Below the pieces are notes generated by a model. It did not search any database. It saw nothing but the letters and a program-made list of their open reading frames with translations, and was not told the DNA's origin. From positions 1 through 36,592 of the forward strand of contig WJMN01000037.1 of the NCBI GenBank assembly GCA_014727925.1: a stretch of 36,592 bases of DNA, read 5' to 3'. Within the stretch, counting starts at the first letter, position 1, and each line of letters begins with the position of its first letter. Of the stretch, positions 2,711 to 20,190 are shown one piece after another. Made by a program: the position numbers and the translations under genes. This DNA comes from Microcaldota archaeon. GTDB taxonomy: Archaea; Micrarchaeota; Micrarchaeia; Anstonellales; Bilamarchaeaceae.

Positions 2711-2787
2711 AAGTTCATATTTGACCACAAAACATATTAAAAATATAGTGCAGAACCCCTGGTGTTTTTTTGCACTGGGGCGTTCAA

Positions 2788-3123
2788 ATGATAGAAAAAT
2801 ACGGGTTTGGAAAAATTGTGGTTGATGGGGATGAATATACCGAAGATATCATCCTGGTTGGGGAAAAGGTGTACCCTAAATGGTGGAGGGAAAGAGGGCA
2901 TTTGCTTCAGAAAAGAGACCTTGGGCCCATCCTTGATGCAGAGCTGGACACCCTTGTTGTGGGTACCGGCCATGATGGGAGAATGGAGGTGGGAGATGAT
3001 GTTAGGGAATACTGCAGAGAGAATGGAATTCGGCTTATTGAGCTTAAAAGCGGGAAAGCCGTAGATGAGTATAATGCAATGGAAAATAAAGGGTCGGCGC
3101 TTGCAATCCATTTAACCTGTTAA
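2788..3123 (+). CDS. MTH938-like (DUF498/AAMDC-type) domain protein
   Basis: 'IEKYGFGKIVVDGDEYTEDIILVGEKVYPKWWRERGH...LDTLVVGTGHDGRMEVGDDVREYCRENGIRLIELKSGKAVDEYN' matches the family pattern. ATG at 2788 preferred over the TTG at 2770 in the ORF track. Confidence 0.75.
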   Translation: MIEKYGFGKIVVDGDEYTEDIILVGEKVYPKWWRERGHLLQKRDLGPILDAELDTLVVGTGHDGRMEVGDDVREYCRENGIRLIELKSGKAVDEYNAMENKGSALAIHLTC

Positions 3124-3124
3124 A

Positions 3125-3991
3125 TTACCCCATTTCCTCAAGAAGATCCTTCAGTGGTTCCGCATATTCACTTTCCCTGATTTGATTAAAAGCATCCTGC
3201 TGAATCTGCCTTATGCGTTCCCTGCTAAGTGAAAATTTATCGCCTATTTCCTGCAGAGTATGTTCCTCATACCCATTTAGCCCAAAGCGCATTTCAAGGA
3301 GTTCGCGGTGGCTAGGTGGCAGTGAGTAGATGGCGCGGGTAATAACTGATAAAAGGTCGTTTGAAGTGAGGGATTTCTCCTGGACTGGTGGTGAAAAAGC
3401 ATTTATAATTGCTGAAACTCCAAGCTGGCGGGAATCCTTATGGGGTGAATTAGCATAGAGGAGGGGGCCGGAATCAGGAGAATCCTCGGCATGTATGAAC
3501 ACCGGCAGGAGAAGGCGCAGCGTATGTTTTGAGCGTTCCGATAGTCCCATCTTCTCCATTGCATCCTCAAAGCCCGCATTGTTATCCTTCATTGCCTTGA
3601 TAACACCAAATATCTTTCTCTGTTGGCTCTGGGTAAGAGACACTTCCCCAGAAAGCTTAAACACATCTTTTATGCATCTCCTTGCATCAGAAAGAAAATA
3701 AGTTGAAAAACTTGCTTTTGAACAGTCGTACCTCTGGGATGCATAAAAAAGTGAAAACAGCAGAATGCTGTCCACATCCTCCCTTTCGCATCTTGGGCTC
3801 CGTGAATAGAGTTCGTGTTTTTTGGCAGCTATGGAAATAAGCCTAATATTTTTCAATACAAGCTCCCACGCTTTACTATTGTTCCTCCTAACCAAGGGGG
3901 GCTGATTTGTCCTCTTTTTTTGGAAATGCGGCCTTCGCCTGGCTTTGCCAGAGCCCATATGGGGATTGCCAATTTTCCTGGTCTTACGCAT
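3125..3991 (-). CDS. RNA polymerase sigma-70-like factor, the most bacteria-like of the three
   Basis: C-terminal 'LPPSHRELLEMRFGLNGYEEHTLQEIGDKFSLSRERIRQIQQDAFNQIRESEYAEPLKDLLEEMG' is nearly the canonical RpoD region 4. N-terminal 'DVDSILLFSLFYASQRYDCSKASFSTYFLSDARRCIKDVF' is region-2-like. TATA-like 'CTTTTTAATCC' about 26 nt upstream of the ATG. Confidence 0.9.
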   Translation of the reverse strand: MRKTRKIGNPHMGSGKARRRPHFQKKRTNQPPLVRRNNSKAWELVLKNIRLISIAAKKHELYSRSPRCEREDVDSILLFSLFYASQRYDCSKASFSTYFLSDARRCIKDVFKLSGEVSLTQSQQRKIFGVIKAMKDNNAGFEDAMEKMGLSERSKHTLRLLLPVFIHAEDSPDSGPLLYANSPHKDSRQLGVSAIINAFSPPVQEKSLTSNDLLSVITRAIYSLPPSHRELLEMRFGLNGYEEHTLQEIGDKFSLSRERIRQIQQDAFNQIRESEYAEPLKDLLEEMG

Positions 3992-4095: not shown

Positions 4096-5274
4096 GTGCA
4101 AAACTTGGAACTGACGGAAAAAGAAGAAAGGATGCTTGTGGGTGAAGAGGGGGAAGCCAAGCAGAAAGCGATGGAGATCCTTGTTGCGCTGGGAAAAATC
4201 TACCATGCAGAGCGCATGGTCAGAGTCAGCTCTGCGCAGATTGCAGGAGTTTCCTACAAAACAATAGGGGATGCGGGGCTGGAATACCTGAAGCACATGG
4301 CTGCGCTCGGGGGAAGAGTGGAAATACCTTCCTTTCTGAACCCGGCGGGAATGGACACATGCCAATGGAGGCAGATGGGGTTCCCTGAGGAATTTGCAAA
4401 AAAGCAGCTTCAGATACTTGATGCATATTCAACTATGGGGATTACCACGAGCTGCACCTGCACGCCCTACTTAAATGGAGTAAGGCCTGTAGAGGGGGAG
4501 CATATTGCATGGAGTGAAAGCTCCGCGGTTTCCTTTGCAAACTCGGTACTGGGAGCGCGCACAAACAGGGAAGGTGGCCCTTCCGCGCTCTGCGCTGCGC
4601 TTTGCGGGGTAACACCTCTATATGGGCTGCACCTTGAGGAAAACAGGGTTGCGGATATCATTGTGAATGTGGAGGGAACACTTGAAAACCGCACTGAATA
4701 TGGATTGCTGGGCCTGCTTGTGGGAAAAGAAGCTAGGGGGAAGCTTCCTGCATTCAGGGGAATAAACCCGGACCAGGATATGCTAAAGTACCTTGGAGCA
4801 GCAATGGCTGCATCTGGCTCTGTACCGCTTTACTTTGTTGCGGGGGTAACTCCGGAATGGAATCTGGGAGAAAGCCCCGAGGAAATTACAATAACCAAAA
4901 AAGAGATTGAAGCACTTAAGGAAAAGCTGAACGAGGCCGGGCATGCGGATCTCGTCACCGTTGGGTGCCCGCATGCTTCACTTGATGAGCTTGAGGAGAT
5001 TGCACAAAAACTTGAGAAAAAGCCAGTTGAAAAGCCCTTCTGGATTTGCCTGGGCAGGGGGGTAAAAAAAGAGGCGGAGCAGAAGGGAATTGCCCGGAGA
5101 ATTGAGGAAAATGGGGGTAGGCTGGTTGCTGATACCTGCATGGTTGTTGCCCCCCTAGAAGAAATGGGCTTTGGGACAACTGCGGTGGATTCGGGAAAAG
5201 CTGCAACTTACCTGCCCACCATGTGCAAGCAGAAACTGGTTTTCGGAAAACTAGAGGAGATACTATGGAAATAA
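4096..5274 (+). CDS. Aconitase X catalytic (large) subunit, putative mevalonate-5-phosphate dehydratase large subunit
   Basis: 'MDTCQWRQMGFPEEFAKKQLQILDAYSTMGITTSCTCTPYLNGVRPVEGEHIAWSESSAVSFANSVLGARTNREGGPSALCAALCGVTPLYGLH' is characteristic of the AcnX family; followed by the swivel-domain subunit. GTG start with TATA 'atatttaaaatata' upstream. Confidence 0.92.
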   Translation: MQNLELTEKEERMLVGEEGEAKQKAMEILVALGKIYHAERMVRVSSAQIAGVSYKTIGDAGLEYLKHMAALGGRVEIPSFLNPAGMDTCQWRQMGFPEEFAKKQLQILDAYSTMGITTSCTCTPYLNGVRPVEGEHIAWSESSAVSFANSVLGARTNREGGPSALCAALCGVTPLYGLHLEENRVADIIVNVEGTLENRTEYGLLGLLVGKEARGKLPAFRGINPDQDMLKYLGAAMAASGSVPLYFVAGVTPEWNLGESPEEITITKKEIEALKEKLNEAGHADLVTVGCPHASLDELEEIAQKLEKKPVEKPFWICLGRGVKKEAEQKGIARRIEENGGRLVADTCMVVAPLEEMGFGTTAVDSGKAATYLPTMCKQKLVFGKLEEILWK

Positions 5275-6819: not shown

Positions 6820-7125
6820 ATGATCATGGGCGGGACAATGGCAAAGAAACCAGCTAAAAAGGGTAAGAAAAAACATGGGCCCAAAACAGAGAACCAATTT
6901 CTTGTTCCAAGAAATCCTGGTGCTGAGCGGGAAAATAGGGGGCACGTTAAAGCAGTTCCCGTAAAGATAACTCCTCCTGAAGAAAAGGAAGAACCCCCAA
7001 AATACTCGCGGGGAAGAAAAGTTAGGGGCCCTGGGCCAAAGGGAAGTATGGATGACAGGATTAGCCGGCTTGGAACTGAATGGGGAAGAAGGAAAAGAAA
7101 ACCTAAAAAGAAAAAGAAGGGCTAA
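6820..7125 (+). CDS. Small highly basic protein of unknown function
   Basis: 101 aa, Lys/Arg/Pro-rich ('MAKKPAKKGKKKHGPKTENQFLVPRNPGAERENRGH...GRRKRKPKKKKKG'); fits between neighbours. Confidence 0.6.
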   Translation: MIMGGTMAKKPAKKGKKKHGPKTENQFLVPRNPGAERENRGHVKAVPVKITPPEEKEEPPKYSRGRKVRGPGPKGSMDDRISRLGTEWGRRKRKPKKKKKG

Positions 7126-9248
7126 TTCCCCAAGAGCTTTTCTGCAATTAGCCGGCCACTCTCCTTGTTTAGAAAACGGTTATCGTTTCCGCACATCGGA
7201 TCTAAAATGCACCTGGGGCATCCCTTTTCGCAGGGGCATTTCTCCAGGCGATTCCTGCTCATTTTAACAATTTTCTCAAACTTTCCGAAAACCACCTGAG
7301 TAACACCGTTTCCATCCTCAACAGAATCATAAACATACATTCTTCCTGAGGGATAGGAAATTCCTCCAAGCTCCTTGGGGTCTGCTCCGGTAATTGCGGG
7401 CATCATGGAGATGGAAACGTGCTCAAATGCATGCAGTCCGTCTCCGAACTCAGGAACATCATATACAAAATCCTCCAGGTCCAGCCAGAGCGCATAAGTA
7501 TCATACTCATAAATATAGGGGGTTTCAAAGGTGTGCTCTGCAATTTTTGTGCTGCCAAACATATCTTTTACAATGAATCCGTACACTTCCTCGGTTATGT
7601 GCACTTTCCCAAAGGAAAGTGTATGACCCAGGCATTCGCGGGAAGCAAGCTCCTGCACAACCTCTGCACTCTTGTTGCTGAGGGCGGAGGTGTACTCCTC
7701 CACCTGCCCGTGCATCTGCTCAACCCAGGCCTCCATCTTGTCCAGGTCCAGTTTTTGTGATAGATAGGGGTGGCCTCCGTGCAGATAAATTGCCCCCTCA
7801 AAAAGCTCCTTTATTGCCATTCCTATTCCCCTTTCCCCAAGGTGCCTGCCTGTTTCAGAATTGTAGATTTTTACCGAAGTGCCTGCAGAGCGGAGGTTTA
7901 TGCTGCGGGCGCGCTTTGAGCCCTCCCGGGTAATGCTGTAGAAATTGCCCCATTTTTTCACGAGCTCTTCCTCTTCAAGAGAATCGATTATTTCCAGGGT
8001 TTTGTTGTCCAGTTCCTCAGGAGAAAACATCAGGTCCTTTGCAGCAGAAAGAATGTGGAGGCGGCGAACGTTCTCGTTTTTTGGGTTTATGTAGCAGTTT
8101 TCGGGCTCCCCATGCAGATATTCGCCTGGGTTTTCAAAATAGTATTGGTCTAGGGGGCTTTCTTTTGCTACAAACACTCCATAGCCGGTCTGGCCTTTGC
8201 GGCCGCAGCGCCCTATGCGCTGGCGCACTCTGGTAATTGTACCTGGAAAACCTGCAAGAACTACCACATCCGTATTGCCCACATCTATTCCCAGCTCCAG
8301 GGCGGAAGTGGTTGCAAGATACTTTATCCTGCCCTCCTTGAAATCAGACTCTATTCTCCTGCGCTCGTCCTGGCGCAGCCCTGCCCTGTAAACTCCCAGG
8401 GGAATATTCATCCTGGAAGCCATCAGCCCCATCCGCTCAACTAGGGAATGGGAATTTCCGAATATCAGGGCTTTCCTTCCTATTTCATCCGCGATGCGCA
8501 GGGCAGCAACCGAATAGCTTTCCGGAGGAGAGATCAGGAGATGATGGAACTCTGAGCGTGGGGATGAATTGCCTTCCACAAGAACAAAATCCTCTCCACA
8601 GAGTCCTTCGGAAAATTCTTTTGCATTTCCAACTGTTGCAGAGGTTGCGATAAACTGGATATCGCGCTTGAACTTTTTTTTCATAAGTCGCTTTAGCCTC
8701 CAGAGAACATTTGAGGCATGGGCCCCAAAAATACCTGAGTATATGTGGACCTCGTCTAGAACAACATACTTGAGGTTCTCAAAGAATTTTGTAAAGAGGC
8801 GGTTGTTTAGGAGAACAAAGTGGAGCATGTCCATGTTGGAAACCAGGATTTGTGGGGGCCGGGCGCGGATTTTTTCCCTCCTTCCCTGCGGCGTGTCCCC
8901 GTCATAATTCTCTGTGCGAACCCCATATAATGCAAATTCCGAGAACCTCAGCTGCTGGTCCCTGGCAAGTGCCTTGGTTGGATATAGAAGAAGGGTGTTG
9001 TCCCCATTTATTGCAGACTCAACTGCAGGAACCAGGAAAACCTCGCTTTTCCCCCCTGCTGTTGGGGCCACAACCACTACGTTCTTCCCCTGCTTTACAT
9101 ATTCTATTCCATCTGCCTGGTGGCGGTAGAGATGGGTTATTCCCCTTCCTGAAAACACATTTTTTATTATTGGGGAAAGAAAATAATTTGCATACTGGGC
9201 TTCGCGGGCAGGCGCAATTTCTTCCACCGGGTTGTATTCTTCAAGCAT
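7122..9248 (-). CDS. DEAD/DEAH-box helicase with C-terminal DUF1998-type Cys cluster (MrfA/YprA/Hrq1-like)
   Basis: 'VVVAPTAGGKSEVFLVPAVE', 'LLYPTKALARDQ', 'VLDEVHIYSG', 'TSATVGN', 'ATSALELGIDVGNTDVVVLAGFPGTITRVRQRIGRCGRKGQ', and C-terminal 'CPCEKGCPRCILDPMCGN'. Confidence 0.92.
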   Translation of the reverse strand: MLEEYNPVEEIAPAREAQYANYFLSPIIKNVFSGRGITHLYRHQADGIEYVKQGKNVVVVAPTAGGKSEVFLVPAVESAINGDNTLLLYPTKALARDQQLRFSEFALYGVRTENYDGDTPQGRREKIRARPPQILVSNMDMLHFVLLNNRLFTKFFENLKYVVLDEVHIYSGIFGAHASNVLWRLKRLMKKKFKRDIQFIATSATVGNAKEFSEGLCGEDFVLVEGNSSPRSEFHHLLISPPESYSVAALRIADEIGRKALIFGNSHSLVERMGLMASRMNIPLGVYRAGLRQDERRRIESDFKEGRIKYLATTSALELGIDVGNTDVVVLAGFPGTITRVRQRIGRCGRKGQTGYGVFVAKESPLDQYYFENPGEYLHGEPENCYINPKNENVRRLHILSAAKDLMFSPEELDNKTLEIIDSLEEEELVKKWGNFYSITREGSKRARSINLRSAGTSVKIYNSETGRHLGERGIGMAIKELFEGAIYLHGGHPYLSQKLDLDKMEAWVEQMHGQVEEYTSALSNKSAEVVQELASRECLGHTLSFGKVHITEEVYGFIVKDMFGSTKIAEHTFETPYIYEYDTYALWLDLEDFVYDVPEFGDGLHAFEHVSISMMPAITGADPKELGGISYPSGRMYVYDSVEDGNGVTQVVFGKFEKIVKMSRNRLEKCPCEKGCPRCILDPMCGNDNRFLNKESGRLIAEKLLGN

Positions 9249-12891: not shown

Positions 12892-15800
12892 GTGCCTGCA
12901 AGGAAACAGAGCCGTGCAGAAGAAATCGAAGAAGTCAGCCTAGAGGCTGAAGGAGAAGCAGAAAAAAGGGCGAGGGAGCTCCGGAATTCCATACCAAACA
13001 TAGTTTCTACCAGCGACCAGGCAGTAGCAGAAGCACTTGGACAGAGAGGAGAAAGCCGGGAAGTTTCAGCAGAAATTGAAGAAACAGCAGTCGCTGCAGA
13101 AGAAGAAGCTGAAGCAGGCATTGGAGAGCTTCAGCAGATGCAGTTTAGGCAAAGCCTGGAAATGGGAGTGCATATGCTGTATGCTGATGGGAGGCAGATT
13201 AAAGAATCGGCCGGAAATGAAATTGTTCTGGGATTTGCAGAAAAAGCAAAAGATGCATATGAAGCAGAATCATACGAATTGTGCGCAAAATACCTTGCAT
13301 ATGGGGAAGCTGCAATTTACGGGGCCATGGGTGCTGCAGAAGACGGTTCAGCATTGGAAAAGATAAATAAGGAAGGCCAAGAGCTGCTGGAAAATCCCGC
13401 GCTGATGGAAAAAAAAGAGAACCTGGAGTTGCTCGCACAGGCACAGCTGGAGATACAGCTGTATTCCGCAGAAAAAACTGCTGCGGGAATTGAAAATGCG
13501 CTGGGGAGCGCGGCATTGGGCAGGAAGGAAAGGGAGTTTGTGCAAAAGCAGCTAAATAAAGCGCGGCTTGAATATATGGATGCCAGGGGGGAGCTTGCCC
13601 GGGGAAGAACAAAAAAAGCAGCAGAGCTGGCAGGCAAATGCAGCCAGAGGGCCAACGCACTTCAAAGCTATATTGAAGGAGTATATGAGCAGAAGGCCAT
13701 GGGGGCCGCCCACAGGAGAATCAGAGTAACTGTTGAAATTAGTGGTGAAAAGAAAAAAACCACCATGGGAAAAATTGTTGAGCAGCAGATTTCAAAAATG
13801 CAGGAAGCTGTTGAGAAAGCAGATGCCGAATCTGCAGGTGAGCTTCTGGGGGGAGTCAGATATTACCGCGCTTACAGCGAACTGCAGAGATTCCGGAACT
13901 CAAGCAGAGGATATGCCGGAAAGGCCGGAAGCCGCTTGGCATTTGTCGGGGAAACTGCAGAAAAGCTTATGACGAGGGGGATGTTCCCGGAAGCACTGGG
14001 TGTTCTCAATATTGGATATAATTACAAGGCAACTTTTGAGAAAAGCACATATGTGGGCTTTGCAAAAAGCAGTGAAACTCTTATTGAAGCTGAAAGAAGG
14101 ATAAGAGGGGATGCCGGCCTGAAAATATCAGAAGACAGCCTTGCCCAGGCAAGGAAGTCCCTGGGAAGGGCGATAGATTCTCTTGATCCTAAGCTGGTTG
14201 AAGAAAGGAGAAGAAAGGGGCTCCGACCCATAGATATGGAAAGGGAACTAAGGAAAGCCGGGATGCATTCGGAGATGGCCATGGGTATGGGGGCAGCACT
14301 GGAGATAAACAAGAAAAGGGCCAGGGAAACGGCAGGGAGAATTTTCCAGAAAGCAAGCAAAGAGGAAGCGGAAAAAGCAGCAGAAGAGGAAATGCCCCGC
14401 GCATATGCAAGCCTTAAAAGAATGGAGGGTGCCGCGCTCGGAGGAAAGCCTGAAGAGATGGAAACAGCATCACTCTCCTTTTCACAAAATCTTGAAGTTG
14501 AGAGGGAAGAGTGGATTGCGCGGCTTGAGCGGCCCCATGTGCTTGCTGCATTTCAGCATGGGCAGGAAACCCTAGAGAGTATAAGGGACCAGGCTGCTGA
14601 TGAAAGTAAAGGGCTTGGAAATGCTGCAGACAGCATAGAGGAATTGGCTGTTGGAAGAGAAGAAGTGGAAGGGAATGCCAGAATAGTTGCAATAAACATC
14701 AGAAAAGGTGCAAAAGCTGCTGGGGAACTGAGCAACCGCGCCGCTGATGAACTTGAAAGAGAAGGCAGGGAGGAAGCCGGATTCAGCTTTAACGGTGAAG
14801 TAGGCAGAGGGAGAATAATTTCTCCTGGGCAGGAAAAAGCAGAAGTAGAAATTATGAGGGCAGCAGTAGCAAGGCAGGAAGAGATAATGGAGGATGCTGC
14901 AGGTATTTCCCAGAGAACCTCGGGACTGGGGATTTTGAGCCAGCAGGTCATTGGGAGCCTTGCAGGCTATCGCTCAGGAAACATGAGCGCTTTCAGGGGT
15001 TCAGATATTGAAAGGGGAATGGCGCAGGTCAGGTTCAGGGGGGCTATTGCAGAATATGCACAGGCATCAAGATACCTGGCTAACTTTGGGAGCGGGGATG
15101 TGCAGCTCGGCAAGGACATGAAAAATGCACATGATAACCTAGGTGACGGGCTGGAGGATGAAGCAGCTGCAGTCTCGCTTATGACTGGTGAGATGGTAGG
15201 CCATGAGCATGGTGAGGAAGTAAGGCAAAGGATAGAGGGAATATATGTGGGCCCGAGGCTTGCAGAATTTGAAATAAGCACAGGCATGCGGGAAGCAGAA
15301 GAAGGAGAGGGGCTTAGGGTGAGGCGGGAAATTGTAGCGAGTTCTTTAGTGAAGCAGCAGGCAATTGCGGGAACTCATGCTTTTGTTGGAAACGAAGGAA
15401 AAAGAATCTGGAAAATGGTGGAGAACACGGAAAGGATAAAGGATGGGAAAACAAGTGGAGTGGAGCAGCGGATTGCCCTTTCGGAAGTCAGAGTCCAGTC
15501 AGATGAAATGGATTTTGACAGGGAACAGGCCGCCACTATAGAAGGCGGTGTGCATTTCCTTAAAGCGTTTGTGCCGGTTGTTGGCCAGGCCTTTATCGCA
15601 ACAGATGTGCTGCATGGGGCTTCAAATGAAATTGAAATGGCAGGAGAAGTGAGCTGGGGGACTGTAGGGATGGGGGCACTCGTTGCAGCCCCCTATGTAG
15701 GCAAGGGGGCCCAGATGTTCCGGGCATCCCATGGAATCCAGAGGGCAATAGGTTTTGCCCATACAGGATTGGTTATAGGGATGACCGGGCATGGGGCATA

Positions 15801-18800
15801 CCATGGATATGAAGCATTCAAGCAAGGCCATTATGGGGCAGGCATACTCTCAGCAGCTCAAACGCTCCCGATGGCTTTCCATGGTGGCACAGGCATGCCA
15901 AAACTTAATAGGATGCTCAAGGCAAAAGTCGGGGCATCATTTGCGCTGCTTGGGGCCGGAATTGCATCCGGCGCAGGAAGAGCACGGGCAAGCAGGGGAG
16001 CTGCAAAATCCCCCAAGCCAACTTCCGAGCGGGCTTTGTCCGGGCTTGAAGAACTGGGAATCACAGAGCCATCAAGAATACGGGGTATTGAGCAGCGCAT
16101 TGGAGTCCGGGGGGCAGAACAACGGGCCAATGCACTTAAGAGGGCCTTTAGGGGAATAGAGAGGACTGGGAGGGAAGTTGTAGAAAAAAGTCCAGAACTC
16201 TTCACAAAGCCACAGGCCGAATTTGAAGCAGACATAACCAGATTCAAAAAAACACGGAACGCAGTAGAGCACCTAAAAGAAACAGCAGAAAAACATGGCC
16301 TTAGGCCGGCTAGGGGAATGGAAAGTGATGCAAGGCCATACCTAGATGTTGGATTCAGGGAGAATGTGGCCGGATATCTTGCTCGCAGAAAAGTGGAAGG
16401 CATGGAGCTGAGGACACCAGAATATCTAAAAAGCCAGGTAGAAAGCAGGGGGCTGCCAAAAAAAGCAGAATACAGTAATAGGGCAGAGAGGCAGTCTGCA
16501 GCTTTCAGGAAAAGAAATAGCCCAGAATGGGCTGAGAAAACAGTCCGGGAAAACCAGCCTTCAATGGGAGAAACGGTGGAAAATCAGCGATTGCGATACC
16601 TGGCCCTAAACAGAATTGCAGGGGAACCCCCGGAAACAAGGCAGCGAATAAAGGATAGAATATATGAGGGAATAAGTGAAGAAAACAAGCCAATACTTGA
16701 TATGGAATGGAAAATATACGTGGAGGGTTCAGTTCCTGGGCTCAACAAATACCGTCCGGTTTTGGAAGTGCCGGGTTTTGAGGCTCTTCCTGCCAAATCT
16801 CTGGCTCCGGAAACAAAACCAGATGTCAGCACTTTCCTGAAAAAAGCTGAAGGGGCAAATGCCCACGGAATTAGTGCAGAAAAGGGGGGCCACCAACGTT
16901 TTACAGATGTAATAATTAAAGGAGAGATAGGTGAAAATGCCTGGGTTGGGCCATTGAAGAAAGGGCCAGGCATGGACCGTTCTGTTTCCTCTGCATACCA
17001 TGGCCCCTTCTGGGTTGTCCTGGAAGGAAAAGCGGGTGCAGGAAAGGGACCAATAACTTCCAGGGAACACCTGGCATATGTGTGTCCTTCGGAAAAATAT
17101 TTGCTTCGGACATCACATGCAGTAAAGCAGGCTTACTCAAGAGGGCTTCTCACCAGGGCAGAAGCTTCTGATGCCATTTCAAGGCTAATGACAGCAGGCG
17201 AAGCCAAAAAAGCCCCTTCATCTGCATTTGAATCCAGTTCCAGGTGGGATAATGCGGCGAGGGAATTCTGGGGTGAGAGAAAAGCCTTGGCTGAAGCAGA
17301 ACTAAAATCTTTTGAAAGAGTCCACAGAAGAGGAATAATTGAGGCTGCACAGCCTGAAAAAACTGTAATTGAAAGAATGGAAGAACTGCGGGCCGAACAA
17401 AAAAGAACAGGTGTGCCCAGCGCAGAACTTGCAAGGCTGAAAAGAATCGTGAAAGAAAATCCTGAAATAAGGGAAGCTGTAAAAAGGGTCAGGCGTGCCA
17501 GAAGAAGGCTAAAAAACGCAGAAAGCGGAAGACAGATAGGCGCAATTGGGGATGTGGAGGGAACACGGAAGGAGCACGTGGCCCGTGCCAAAAAGCAACT
17601 TGAAGAAGCAGAAGGGCATCTGCTTGAAATTGAAAAAATAGCTGTTCAGGAAGGGAAGAGGACCGGAGTAGTGAAACGAGTGTTTGAAAGGCTGAGGGCG
17701 CTTGGAAAAAAGAGAAGAGAACAGGCGGAAATGGTGTTGGACCCCAAAGGGGAAAAAACAGAAGTGCCACAAGAAAGGGCAAAAAGCCCCACCAGGAGGG
17801 TACGGGACACGATATTCAGGTCCGCGATAGTAGACGCAGGAATGAGGAGGGCTATAGGCTTGGAGAGGGGAAGGGCACTGGCTGAGAGTGCATGGGCAGA
17901 TGTTTATAGGGGAGAGCCCGAGCCCACATTCAGAAACAGACTGGAGAAGGATGCCTATTCTGCCATGAAAGGCCAGGTTGAAGCAAGGTTTAGTCAGGTG
18001 GTGGAATACGCCTGGAAAGACATTGTCAGGGAAAAGACCAAATCAAAGAAGACAAAGGAGCCGCACAGGATAAATGAGGCAGAAATGCCTGTGTACCTGC
18101 GAACAAAAAGAATATTCAGTGCAATATGGGAAGCAAACCTAAAGCGAAGGGGAATGAATAAAAAAAGAGTACGGGGGATGATAGACCCCCAGGAAATTGC
18201 GGCAGACTACAGAGGGTACCTGCAAAGGGGCGCCGGAATGCCTAAAGAGATGCTTGCAAAAGTGCGGGAGATGGGGATAGAAACCACCATCACATATGAT
18301 AGCAAATACGTAACCAAAGTCAAAAACCCCTCTGCTGAAATCACAATCGGGGACATGCACGGAGACCATGTTACAGTTGTCACAGGATTCAAGGAAGCGG
18401 GATTCATAATTGATACCCGGCCGGACCTTCCAGTGGGTGACAAAAGCGTACTCCCTGCAGACCGGTACATAGTCAACAGAGAAATAGGGCAGGGCACACA
18501 ATTCATATTCCTCGGGGACTACATAGACAGAGGGCCGCACAGCCTCTATGCTGTGGATTTTGTGCAGTGGTTCAGGGGAGAAGTATCAGATTTAGGCAAT
18601 GGCTCGCGGGTGCACACACTAAGGGGCAACCATGAAGCAATTTTCAGCAGGGTTTTCAATAGATACAAGGGAAAAACCACTGCTGAGGTGCGGGAACTAA
18701 TAGCTGAAATTGAGCGATATCACACTCTGAAATCAAGGGGAAGAAATGCGGAAGCGCTGGACACTTCAGAAACCGGCAGGCTGGGAGAATTCAAAAGGGA

Positions 18801-20190
18801 AGGTGTTGCACTGGAGAGAGTCGGGACTGAAACCCTGCTTAGGAATATCCTGGAGAGATATGGAACGTGGGAATCTGCAGTAGTGGAAATGCAGAAAGAA
18901 GGGGGACTCATGCATTTTATTGAAAACACAAAGGCAGTTGCGATAATGGAAAGCGGGGAAGGCAGGCACATGTTTACTCATGCAGGGCCCGTAACCAAAA
19001 CCGCGGCAAGGGAGGCAGACGGAACACCTGTGAAAACACTTTCCGGAGATATAGTGTATGATGAGATAAGGAACGTGGATATGTTAAACAGGCATTATGA
19101 GAAATTTTTTGAAAATGACCTAAACTCTTGGGCCCAAAATGACGTCCCAACAGACCCAACGATGTATGGCCGCTATGTGAGGGAATACCGGGAAGCTGCT
19201 TATTCGGGAGATTACTCTTCCGCATATGCAGGGCTTCCGGAAAACCAGGGAGGGTGGAAGCCGGATTCTGCCACTTCAAAGGTAGGAGATAACCTGAGGC
19301 TTCTTTATGAAAACCTCGGCCTGGTAAGCATAAACGTGGGGCACCACGCAGGCCCGGAAACACGTGCAGTAAGCTTTCTTAAGTTCGGGGAAAGGCCGAT
19401 GGAGATAATATGTAATGATTCTTCATTAAGTGAAGTATACCTTGGCAGGTATTCTGCCTGGAAAGGCGGAATACAGTACAAAAGGGCGTGGGGGCTAGAA
19501 AGGAGCCTAGTCATAAGGGGTAGAAAAGAGGCAGCAGGAAAAGCAGAGAAAACACCCAAAATGGAAGAATTTGTTTCTCCTATTGAAATGGAAAATCCTT
19601 ATTCAAAGGCATGGGCAGAAACAGAAGGGGCAAGGCTTTCGGCAATAGAAGCAGGAGAAACCACGGCAACTATTCCTACCCTGCAGATTAAAACAGATGC
19701 CCATGTGCCTGTGCGCAGGGCTGGGCACGTCCCCCCCGTAAGAGGGATACAGCCAAAAAGGCCAAAGCCAAAAAAGCCGGTAAGGGCCCCGCCCAAAACG
19801 GAGGAAACAGAACCCTCTGGAGAAAGAATACGGGAACCATACCCTGAAATACCTGACAGGTTTGAAAAGTGGACTGACCCGGAAACAGGGCTAAGCGGAA
19901 GCAGGCTAAAAAGTTACATGGAAAAGGGAACGTATACAAAGGAGTTTGTTGTCCCTGTAAGAATAAAGGGAGAAACAGGAAGATGGCTTGTGAGAATAGA
20001 GGGTGTTATCCCTGACAGGAGAGGCGAGAGATACTGGTACAGTGTATCAGGATGGCCTGAAAACATAGAATACGCCCCTGGGGAAACAACAGGGTCTATT
20101 GTTTTGAAAAAAGGTGAAAGCCTGAAGGCAAGGATAATAGATAACATACAAAGAAGTTTTGCAAAAACAGGCTCAAGAAAAAAGAGATAG
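12892..20190 (+). CDS. Giant (2432 aa) coiled-coil protein with central hydrophobic Gly/Ala-rich segment and PPP-family (calcineurin-like) phosphatase domain
   Basis: Uninterrupted 7.3-kb ORF, GTG start. PPP motifs in order: 'GDMHGDH', 'FLGDYIDRG', 'LRGNHEAIF', 'FTHAGPV', 'NVGHHAGPE' (about 18340-19360). N-terminal ~870 aa Ala/Glu/Lys-rich helices. Central 'FVPVVGQAFIATDVLHGASNEIEMAGEVSWGTVGMGALVAAPYVG...ALLGAGIASGAG'. Confidence 0.85.
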   Translation: MPARKQSRAEEIEEVSLEAEGEAEKRARELRNSIPNIVSTSDQAVAEALGQRGESREVSAEIEETAVAAEEEAEAGIGELQQMQFRQSLEMGVHMLYADGRQIKESAGNEIVLGFAEKAKDAYEAESYELCAKYLAYGEAAIYGAMGAAEDGSALEKINKEGQELLENPALMEKKENLELLAQAQLEIQLYSAEKTAAGIENALGSAALGRKEREFVQKQLNKARLEYMDARGELARGRTKKAAELAGKCSQRANALQSYIEGVYEQKAMGAAHRRIRVTVEISGEKKKTTMGKIVEQQISKMQEAVEKADAESAGELLGGVRYYRAYSELQRFRNSSRGYAGKAGSRLAFVGETAEKLMTRGMFPEALGVLNIGYNYKATFEKSTYVGFAKSSETLIEAERRIRGDAGLKISEDSLAQARKSLGRAIDSLDPKLVEERRRKGLRPIDMERELRKAGMHSEMAMGMGAALEINKKRARETAGRIFQKASKEEAEKAAEEEMPRAYASLKRMEGAALGGKPEEMETASLSFSQNLEVEREEWIARLERPHVLAAFQHGQETLESIRDQAADESKGLGNAADSIEELAVGREEVEGNARIVAINIRKGAKAAGELSNRAADELEREGREEAGFSFNGEVGRGRIISPGQEKAEVEIMRAAVARQEEIMEDAAGISQRTSGLGILSQQVIGSLAGYRSGNMSAFRGSDIERGMAQVRFRGAIAEYAQASRYLANFGSGDVQLGKDMKNAHDNLGDGLEDEAAAVSLMTGEMVGHEHGEEVRQRIEGIYVGPRLAEFEISTGMREAEEGEGLRVRREIVASSLVKQQAIAGTHAFVGNEGKRIWKMVENTERIKDGKTSGVEQRIALSEVRVQSDEMDFDREQAATIEGGVHFLKAFVPVVGQAFIATDVLHGASNEIEMAGEVSWGTVGMGALVAAPYVGKGAQMFRASHGIQRAIGFAHTGLVIGMTGHGAYHGYEAFKQGHYGAGILSAAQTLPMAFHGGTGMPKLNRMLKAKVGASFALLGAGIASGAGRARASRGAAKSPKPTSERALSGLEELGITEPSRIRGIEQRIGVRGAEQRANALKRAFRGIERTGREVVEKSPELFTKPQAEFEADITRFKKTRNAVEHLKETAEKHGLRPARGMESDARPYLDVGFRENVAGYLARRKVEGMELRTPEYLKSQVESRGLPKKAEYSNRAERQSAAFRKRNSPEWAEKTVRENQPSMGETVENQRLRYLALNRIAGEPPETRQRIKDRIYEGISEENKPILDMEWKIYVEGSVPGLNKYRPVLEVPGFEALPAKSLAPETKPDVSTFLKKAEGANAHGISAEKGGHQRFTDVIIKGEIGENAWVGPLKKGPGMDRSVSSAYHGPFWVVLEGKAGAGKGPITSREHLAYVCPSEKYLLRTSHAVKQAYSRGLLTRAEASDAISRLMTAGEAKKAPSSAFESSSRWDNAAREFWGERKALAEAELKSFERVHRRGIIEAAQPEKTVIERMEELRAEQKRTGVPSAELARLKRIVKENPEIREAVKRVRRARRRLKNAESGRQIGAIGDVEGTRKEHVARAKKQLEEAEGHLLEIEKIAVQEGKRTGVVKRVFERLRALGKKRREQAEMVLDPKGEKTEVPQERAKSPTRRVRDTIFRSAIVDAGMRRAIGLERGRALAESAWADVYRGEPEPTFRNRLEKDAYSAMKGQVEARFSQVVEYAWKDIVREKTKSKKTKEPHRINEAEMPVYLRTKRIFSAIWEANLKRRGMNKKRVRGMIDPQEIAADYRGYLQRGAGMPKEMLAKVREMGIETTITYDSKYVTKVKNPSAEITIGDMHGDHVTVVTGFKEAGFIIDTRPDLPVGDKSVLPADRYIVNREIGQGTQFIFLGDYIDRGPHSLYAVDFVQWFRGEVSDLGNGSRVHTLRGNHEAIFSRVFNRYKGKTTAEVRELIAEIERYHTLKSRGRNAEALDTSETGRLGEFKREGVALERVGTETLLRNILERYGTWESAVVEMQKEGGLMHFIENTKAVAIMESGEGRHMFTHAGPVTKTAAREADGTPVKTLSGDIVYDEIRNVDMLNRHYEKFFENDLNSWAQNDVPTDPTMYGRYVREYREAAYSGDYSSAYAGLPENQGGWKPDSATSKVGDNLRLLYENLGLVSINVGHHAGPETRAVSFLKFGERPMEIICNDSSLSEVYLGRYSAWKGGIQYKRAWGLERSLVIRGRKEAAGKAEKTPKMEEFVSPIEMENPYSKAWAETEGARLSAIEAGETTATIPTLQIKTDAHVPVRRAGHVPPVRGIQPKRPKPKKPVRAPPKTEETEPSGERIREPYPEIPDRFEKWTDPETGLSGSRLKSYMEKGTYTKEFVVPVRIKGETGRWLVRIEGVIPDRRGERYWYSVSGWPENIEYAPGETTGSIVLKKGESLKARIIDNIQRSFAKTGSRKKR

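Follow-up and report, generated by a model that had tools for sequence, protein, structure and literature searches.

The window we analyzed (contig C22 in its entirety, 36,592 bases, from a 1.0-Mb, 88%-complete assembly of 59 contigs) contains three tandem minus-strand ORFs matching sigma-70 models (S1, S2 and S3; Table 1), and sigma-like genes are found at the same genome spot, beside DUF498 and/or AcnX, in all six sampled genomes of this Micrarchaeota genus, in varying number and architecture. S3 retains the residues that contact the -35 element in bacterial sigma-70, and no -35 signal is seen among the TATA-type promoters of the genome. The reading we favor, with modest confidence, is that S1–S3 belong to a lineage-specific, fast-evolving family derived from sigma-70, carried as a variable array at a constant position in the genomes of one genus and acting as transcription regulators beside TBP/TFB.

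Table 1. Features of the window and of the corresponding arrays in the genus (window positions, unless a locus is named)
Feature	Position	Strand	Description
S1	33-1772	minus	579 aa; sigma module in first half (region 2, 1446-1640; region 4, 936-1097; Pfam/NCBIfam)
S1 second half		minus	Degenerate second module, weakly supported
S1 second region-2-like stretch	483-803	minus	Family model 13.5 bits; hhalign probability 91%
S2	1778-2728	minus	Sigma-70-like, 316 aa; region 4, 1820-1948; region 2, 2408-2521
DUF498 (Mth938-like) gene	2770-3123	plus	Conserved array flank
S3	3125-3991	minus	Sigma-70-like, 288 aa; region 2 and region 4
S3 region 4	3137-3373	minus	Residues 207-285; aligned to E. coli RpoD 534-612
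S3 codons R257-Q262	3206-3223	minus	Encode R, E, R and Q at the -35 contacts
S3 region 2	3662-3865	minus	Residues 43-110; TIGR02937 match 43-273
TTTAAA	4065-4070	plus	TATA-like box 5' of AcnX
AcnX large subunit gene	4096-5274	plus	Conserved flank on the opposite array side, divergent from S3
Helicase	7122-9248		DEAD-box, with MrfA Zn-binding domain
2432-aa protein	12892-20190		Metallophosphoesterase domain, residues 1866-1926
G000 array			S1-S3
G001 array			698 + 327 aa
G002 array			594 + 1010 aa; adjoins AcnX, DUF498 not found there
G003			Fragment beside DUF498, at contig end
G004 array			992 aa + 368-aa repeat protein
G005 array	L047:7852-15136		Seven tandem genes, 304-361 aa
~1000-aa proteins	L042:8059-11091 (G002); L046:6727-9705 (G004)		About 8-10 region-4-like repeats, several weak
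~50-60 aa repeats	L039:189-2285; L042:6278-8062; L046:9841-10947		Fused to or beside sigma modules

Sigma-70 homology and the contact residues

S3 and the first module of S1 score above the Pfam cut-off for sigma-70 region 4 (Sigma70_r4, E=1.9e-16 for S3), and S2 scores below it (17.7 vs 24.1 bits); TIGR02937, which covers both regions, likewise matches S1 and S3 above cut-off (1.1e-14 for S3) and S2 below. Region 2 is matched by Pfam alone only weakly, below cut-off, and a model built for the family scores 88.6 bits against E. coli RpoD 373–612. Foldseek matches of the S3 structure model are sigma factors (TM-scores 0.2–0.3); given the low confidence of that model (pLDDT 58), these are supporting evidence at most. 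The second half of S1 is only weakly sigma-like: it has no match in Pfam or NCBIfam, its structure model is uninformative (pLDDT 41), and the family model finds there, besides the region-2-like stretch of Table 1, a region-4-like stretch of 0.2 bits.

Region 4 of S3 aligns to that of MG1655 RpoD without gaps (phmmer), so that R257, E258, R261 and Q262 correspond exactly to R584, E585, R588 and Q589; the initial annotation had claimed these four equivalents, and the alignment confirms them. Every peptide quoted there is present. Overall identity in region 4 is 26/79, and the recognition helix is identical from R584 through I590. Retaining all four contacts by luck has a probability of ~0.01 (hypergeometric estimate at 26/79), a value that overstates the significance because recognition helices are generally conserved better than the rest. 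Out of 16 residues listed as interacting with the -35 box (PMC4943231), S3 retains nine and is changed at R554, D570, Y571, E574, T583 (to S), K593 and R596, with three basic residues (R554, K593, R596) gone. The S3 recognition helix is of the bacterial primary sigma factor type.

The other modules differ at the four positions, as had been noted: S2 has K,Q,H,T, the first half of S1 has K,S followed by N,R (the latter pair by eye), and the second half of S1 has R,Q,E,F (model alignment). S2 thus carries Q at E585 and H at R588, two substitutions for which a relaxed specificity at -33 has been reported in E. coli (PMC2613000). Since the contact residues differ, distinct DNA targets for the S1 and S2 modules, also proposed in the initial annotation, are plausible. 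Its statement that only one factor keeps the full set holds within the window and, among the factors found, within the genome; a fourth factor, on contig C9, comes close, with three of the four retained (R,E,R,S), and two sister species have relatives of it (62% and 42% identity).

Region 2 of S3 retains FSTY and the D403 equivalent and, in the RpoD alignment, lacks W433, W434, Q437 and T440. PMC2613000 describes what Q437, T440 and the aromatics of region 2.3 do, and with these residues gone the bacterial apparatus for reading and melting the -10 element is mostly missing even in S3. The same holds across the family: W433, W434 and T440 are missing in 16/16 members and Q437 in 14/16, and F427 and the D403 equivalent are retained in most of the 16. 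Set against a primary (group 1) sigma factor, S3 alone in the window has the -35 contacts, and it lacks the -10 residues.

TATA-type promoters and the search for TTGACA

Upstream sequences were taken from 513 genes with an upstream gap of at least 45 bases; gene and start calls came from a simple script covering 97.7% of the assembly, and positions are therefore blurred. TTTAAA is strongly enriched upstream of genes (190 copies vs 75 expected, z=16), as is TTTATA (z=11), and the TATA hexamers are most frequent at -35 to -26 relative to the start codon, a distance that fits largely leaderless archaeal transcription. TTGACA is not enriched in the same sequences, whether counted exactly (2 vs 9 expected), with up to one mismatch (144 vs 236), or upstream of TATA-less genes (2 vs 4.3); it is found zero times at -70 to -20 across the 513 genes, and is no denser in intergenic than in coding DNA (0.25 vs 0.31 per kb). 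As its rank among words of the same composition is unremarkable (17th lowest of 180), we claim no enrichment, not avoidance. A loose two-part test (TTGACA with up to two mismatches, TATAAT with up to one) gave z=2.3, which we attribute to TATA enrichment; under stricter two-part criteria z was -1.0 and -2.5, and the -35/-10 promoters that would accompany a primary sigma factor were not found in the genome. One other word, TTCCGG, was enriched relative to shuffles and was dropped when coding DNA proved equally dense in it.

At the divergent promoter between S3 and AcnX, no conserved -35-like site was found, only TATA. Five genomes of the genus have a TATA-type AcnX promoter, and TTTAAA is the core of the sole motif common to these five.

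S3 defines no genome-wide promoter class, and the use of a TTGACA-like element, as proposed for one module, is not borne out, including upstream of TATA-less genes. S3 might still be a working bacterial-type sigma factor that steers the polymerase of this archaeon to a small regulon with TTGACA-like promoters, and tests of this kind would miss a handful of S3 sites. The four retained contacts speak for it, as does the presence of exactly one module with R,E,R,Q in three of the six genus genomes; we nevertheless consider it quite improbable given the lost -10 residues, the TTGACA counts, and the fact that the three R,E,R,Q modules (S3, one from G001 and one from G002) fall in three different clades and are not orthologs, the sister of S3 having R,Q,N,Q. 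Binding of TTGACA-like DNA by S3 is a reasonable biochemical prediction to which the genomic counts lend no support, and no regulon was found in the genome upstream-motif tests.

TBP was found in the genome. TFB was not found in this 88%-complete assembly (no TFIIB match), and it is present in 37/40 genomes searched; every searched relative that is at least 90% complete has it, and the idea that this archaeon has lost TFB was rejected on that ground.

A variable array at a fixed spot

All six genomes of the genus contain family members, as do 23/84 genomes of the order. S3 shares 33% identity with its counterpart, as compared to 73–88% for most flanking genes (same species pair and others), and the array evolves far faster than its neighbors. 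In the tree, the sister of S3 is the G001 gene at the same place (support 98/96), and the next clade comprises six of the seven G005 genes (support 90/90), which indicates local amplification of the S3 lineage. Conservation of the recognition helix is not seen in this eight-member clade: S3 alone keeps the full R,E,R,Q set, contact positions 588 and 589 rank 5th and 19th of 77 columns, toward the variable end, and positions 584 and 585 show average variability. S3 has atypical coding statistics (lowest 1.4% among long genes) and low GC (about the 8th percentile), as would a sigma gene that is decaying or was acquired recently, has no present role and carries a leftover helix; we regard this as very unlikely, as the ORF is intact and the sister gene is kept at the same place in another species.

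Some arrays include proteins of ~1000 aa, an unusual architecture for sigma-derived proteins, in which Pfam recognizes region 2 solely in the G002 protein. We also note the ~50–60 aa repeats ('RSRTxL..xLxxxLxRRGLL'-like), which have a distant look of the DNA-binding repeats of homing endonuclease type; the 368-aa protein made only of such repeats has no Pfam match.

The array proteins could be DNA-binding only, reusing the sigma helix-turn-helix with no polymerase involved, as repressors or in conflict/defence, with the many-repeat proteins binding long DNA modularly. The many region-4-like stretches of the ~1000-aa relatives, several of them individually weak, would fit, as would the fast evolution and variable copy number at a fixed spot, and NCBIfam gives MzaA, a sigma-like protein linked to anti-phage systems, as the top match for region 4 of S3 (64 bits). 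We hold this to be unlikely, since the family retains region 2, most members with the D403 equivalent, and a pure DNA binder would have no need of it; nothing else of the MZA system was noticed in the window in a non-systematic look.

Under the favored reading, as transcription regulators, the array proteins would act as accessory or alternative factors atop the ordinary TBP/TFB machinery: region 2 may touch the clamp of the archaeal RNA polymerase, region 4 may touch a short DNA site, with each paralog having its own target, and S3, with the ancestral contact set kept, may recognize TTGAC-like DNA, at only a few sites. The partial retention of core-binding residues in S3 region 4 (3/6) counts against it. 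A bolder version, in which diversifying sigma-derived initiation factors (up to ~10 region-4-like repeats) give the archaeal RNA polymerase changing promoter or DNA specificities beside TBP/TFB, seems to us doubtful.

Read against the archaeal mevalonate pathway, Pfam matches around the arrays suggest an isoprenoid gene neighborhood, with AcnX here and genes of UbiD-like and amino-acid-kinase-family type close to the G005 array. The helicase gene adjoins the array and is strongly conserved (77–88%), and the metallophosphoesterase domain is the sole one recognized in the 2432-aa protein. A mis-binned bacterial contig is unlikely, as AcnX, an archaeal Hjc and other genes recur at the same spot across the genus. 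No viral relatives of the N-terminal part of S3 were found.

Comparison with known systems

A genus with a variable array and one keeper of the -35 contacts offers a compact protein set in which to ask if sigma factors are able to function with the RNA polymerase of an archaeon, and how sigma DNA specificity drifts while TBP and TFB do the main job. Sigma factors in archaea were reportedly first described by Rinke et al. 2013. In DPANN archaea, with stress on Woesearchaeota, sigma-70 family proteins (fam00359) are already known from PMC8204110, which resemble the present case in occurring alongside TBP/TFB; the passage concerned gives no mechanism and has no arrays, fixed genome spot or region-4 repeat proteins. 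No description of such arrays or repeat proteins in Micrarchaeota was found in the literature searched (subscription papers lay outside the search).

Regions 2 and 4 of E. coli RpoD are homologous to those of the array proteins; unlike RpoD, S3 begins with a short basic stretch and has no RpoD-type region 1, and the array proteins belong to an archaeal genome with TATA promoters. For MzaA (MZA anti-phage system), the match is confined to region 4 and lies far below the 800-bit family cut-off, with no MZA neighbors noticed in the same non-systematic look at the window. A common origin has been proposed for TFB and sigma (PMC4802759). Archaeal TFB is, like a sigma factor, an initiation factor with a helix-turn-helix, whereas S1–S3 match sigma models, and related genomes carry TFB as a separate gene.
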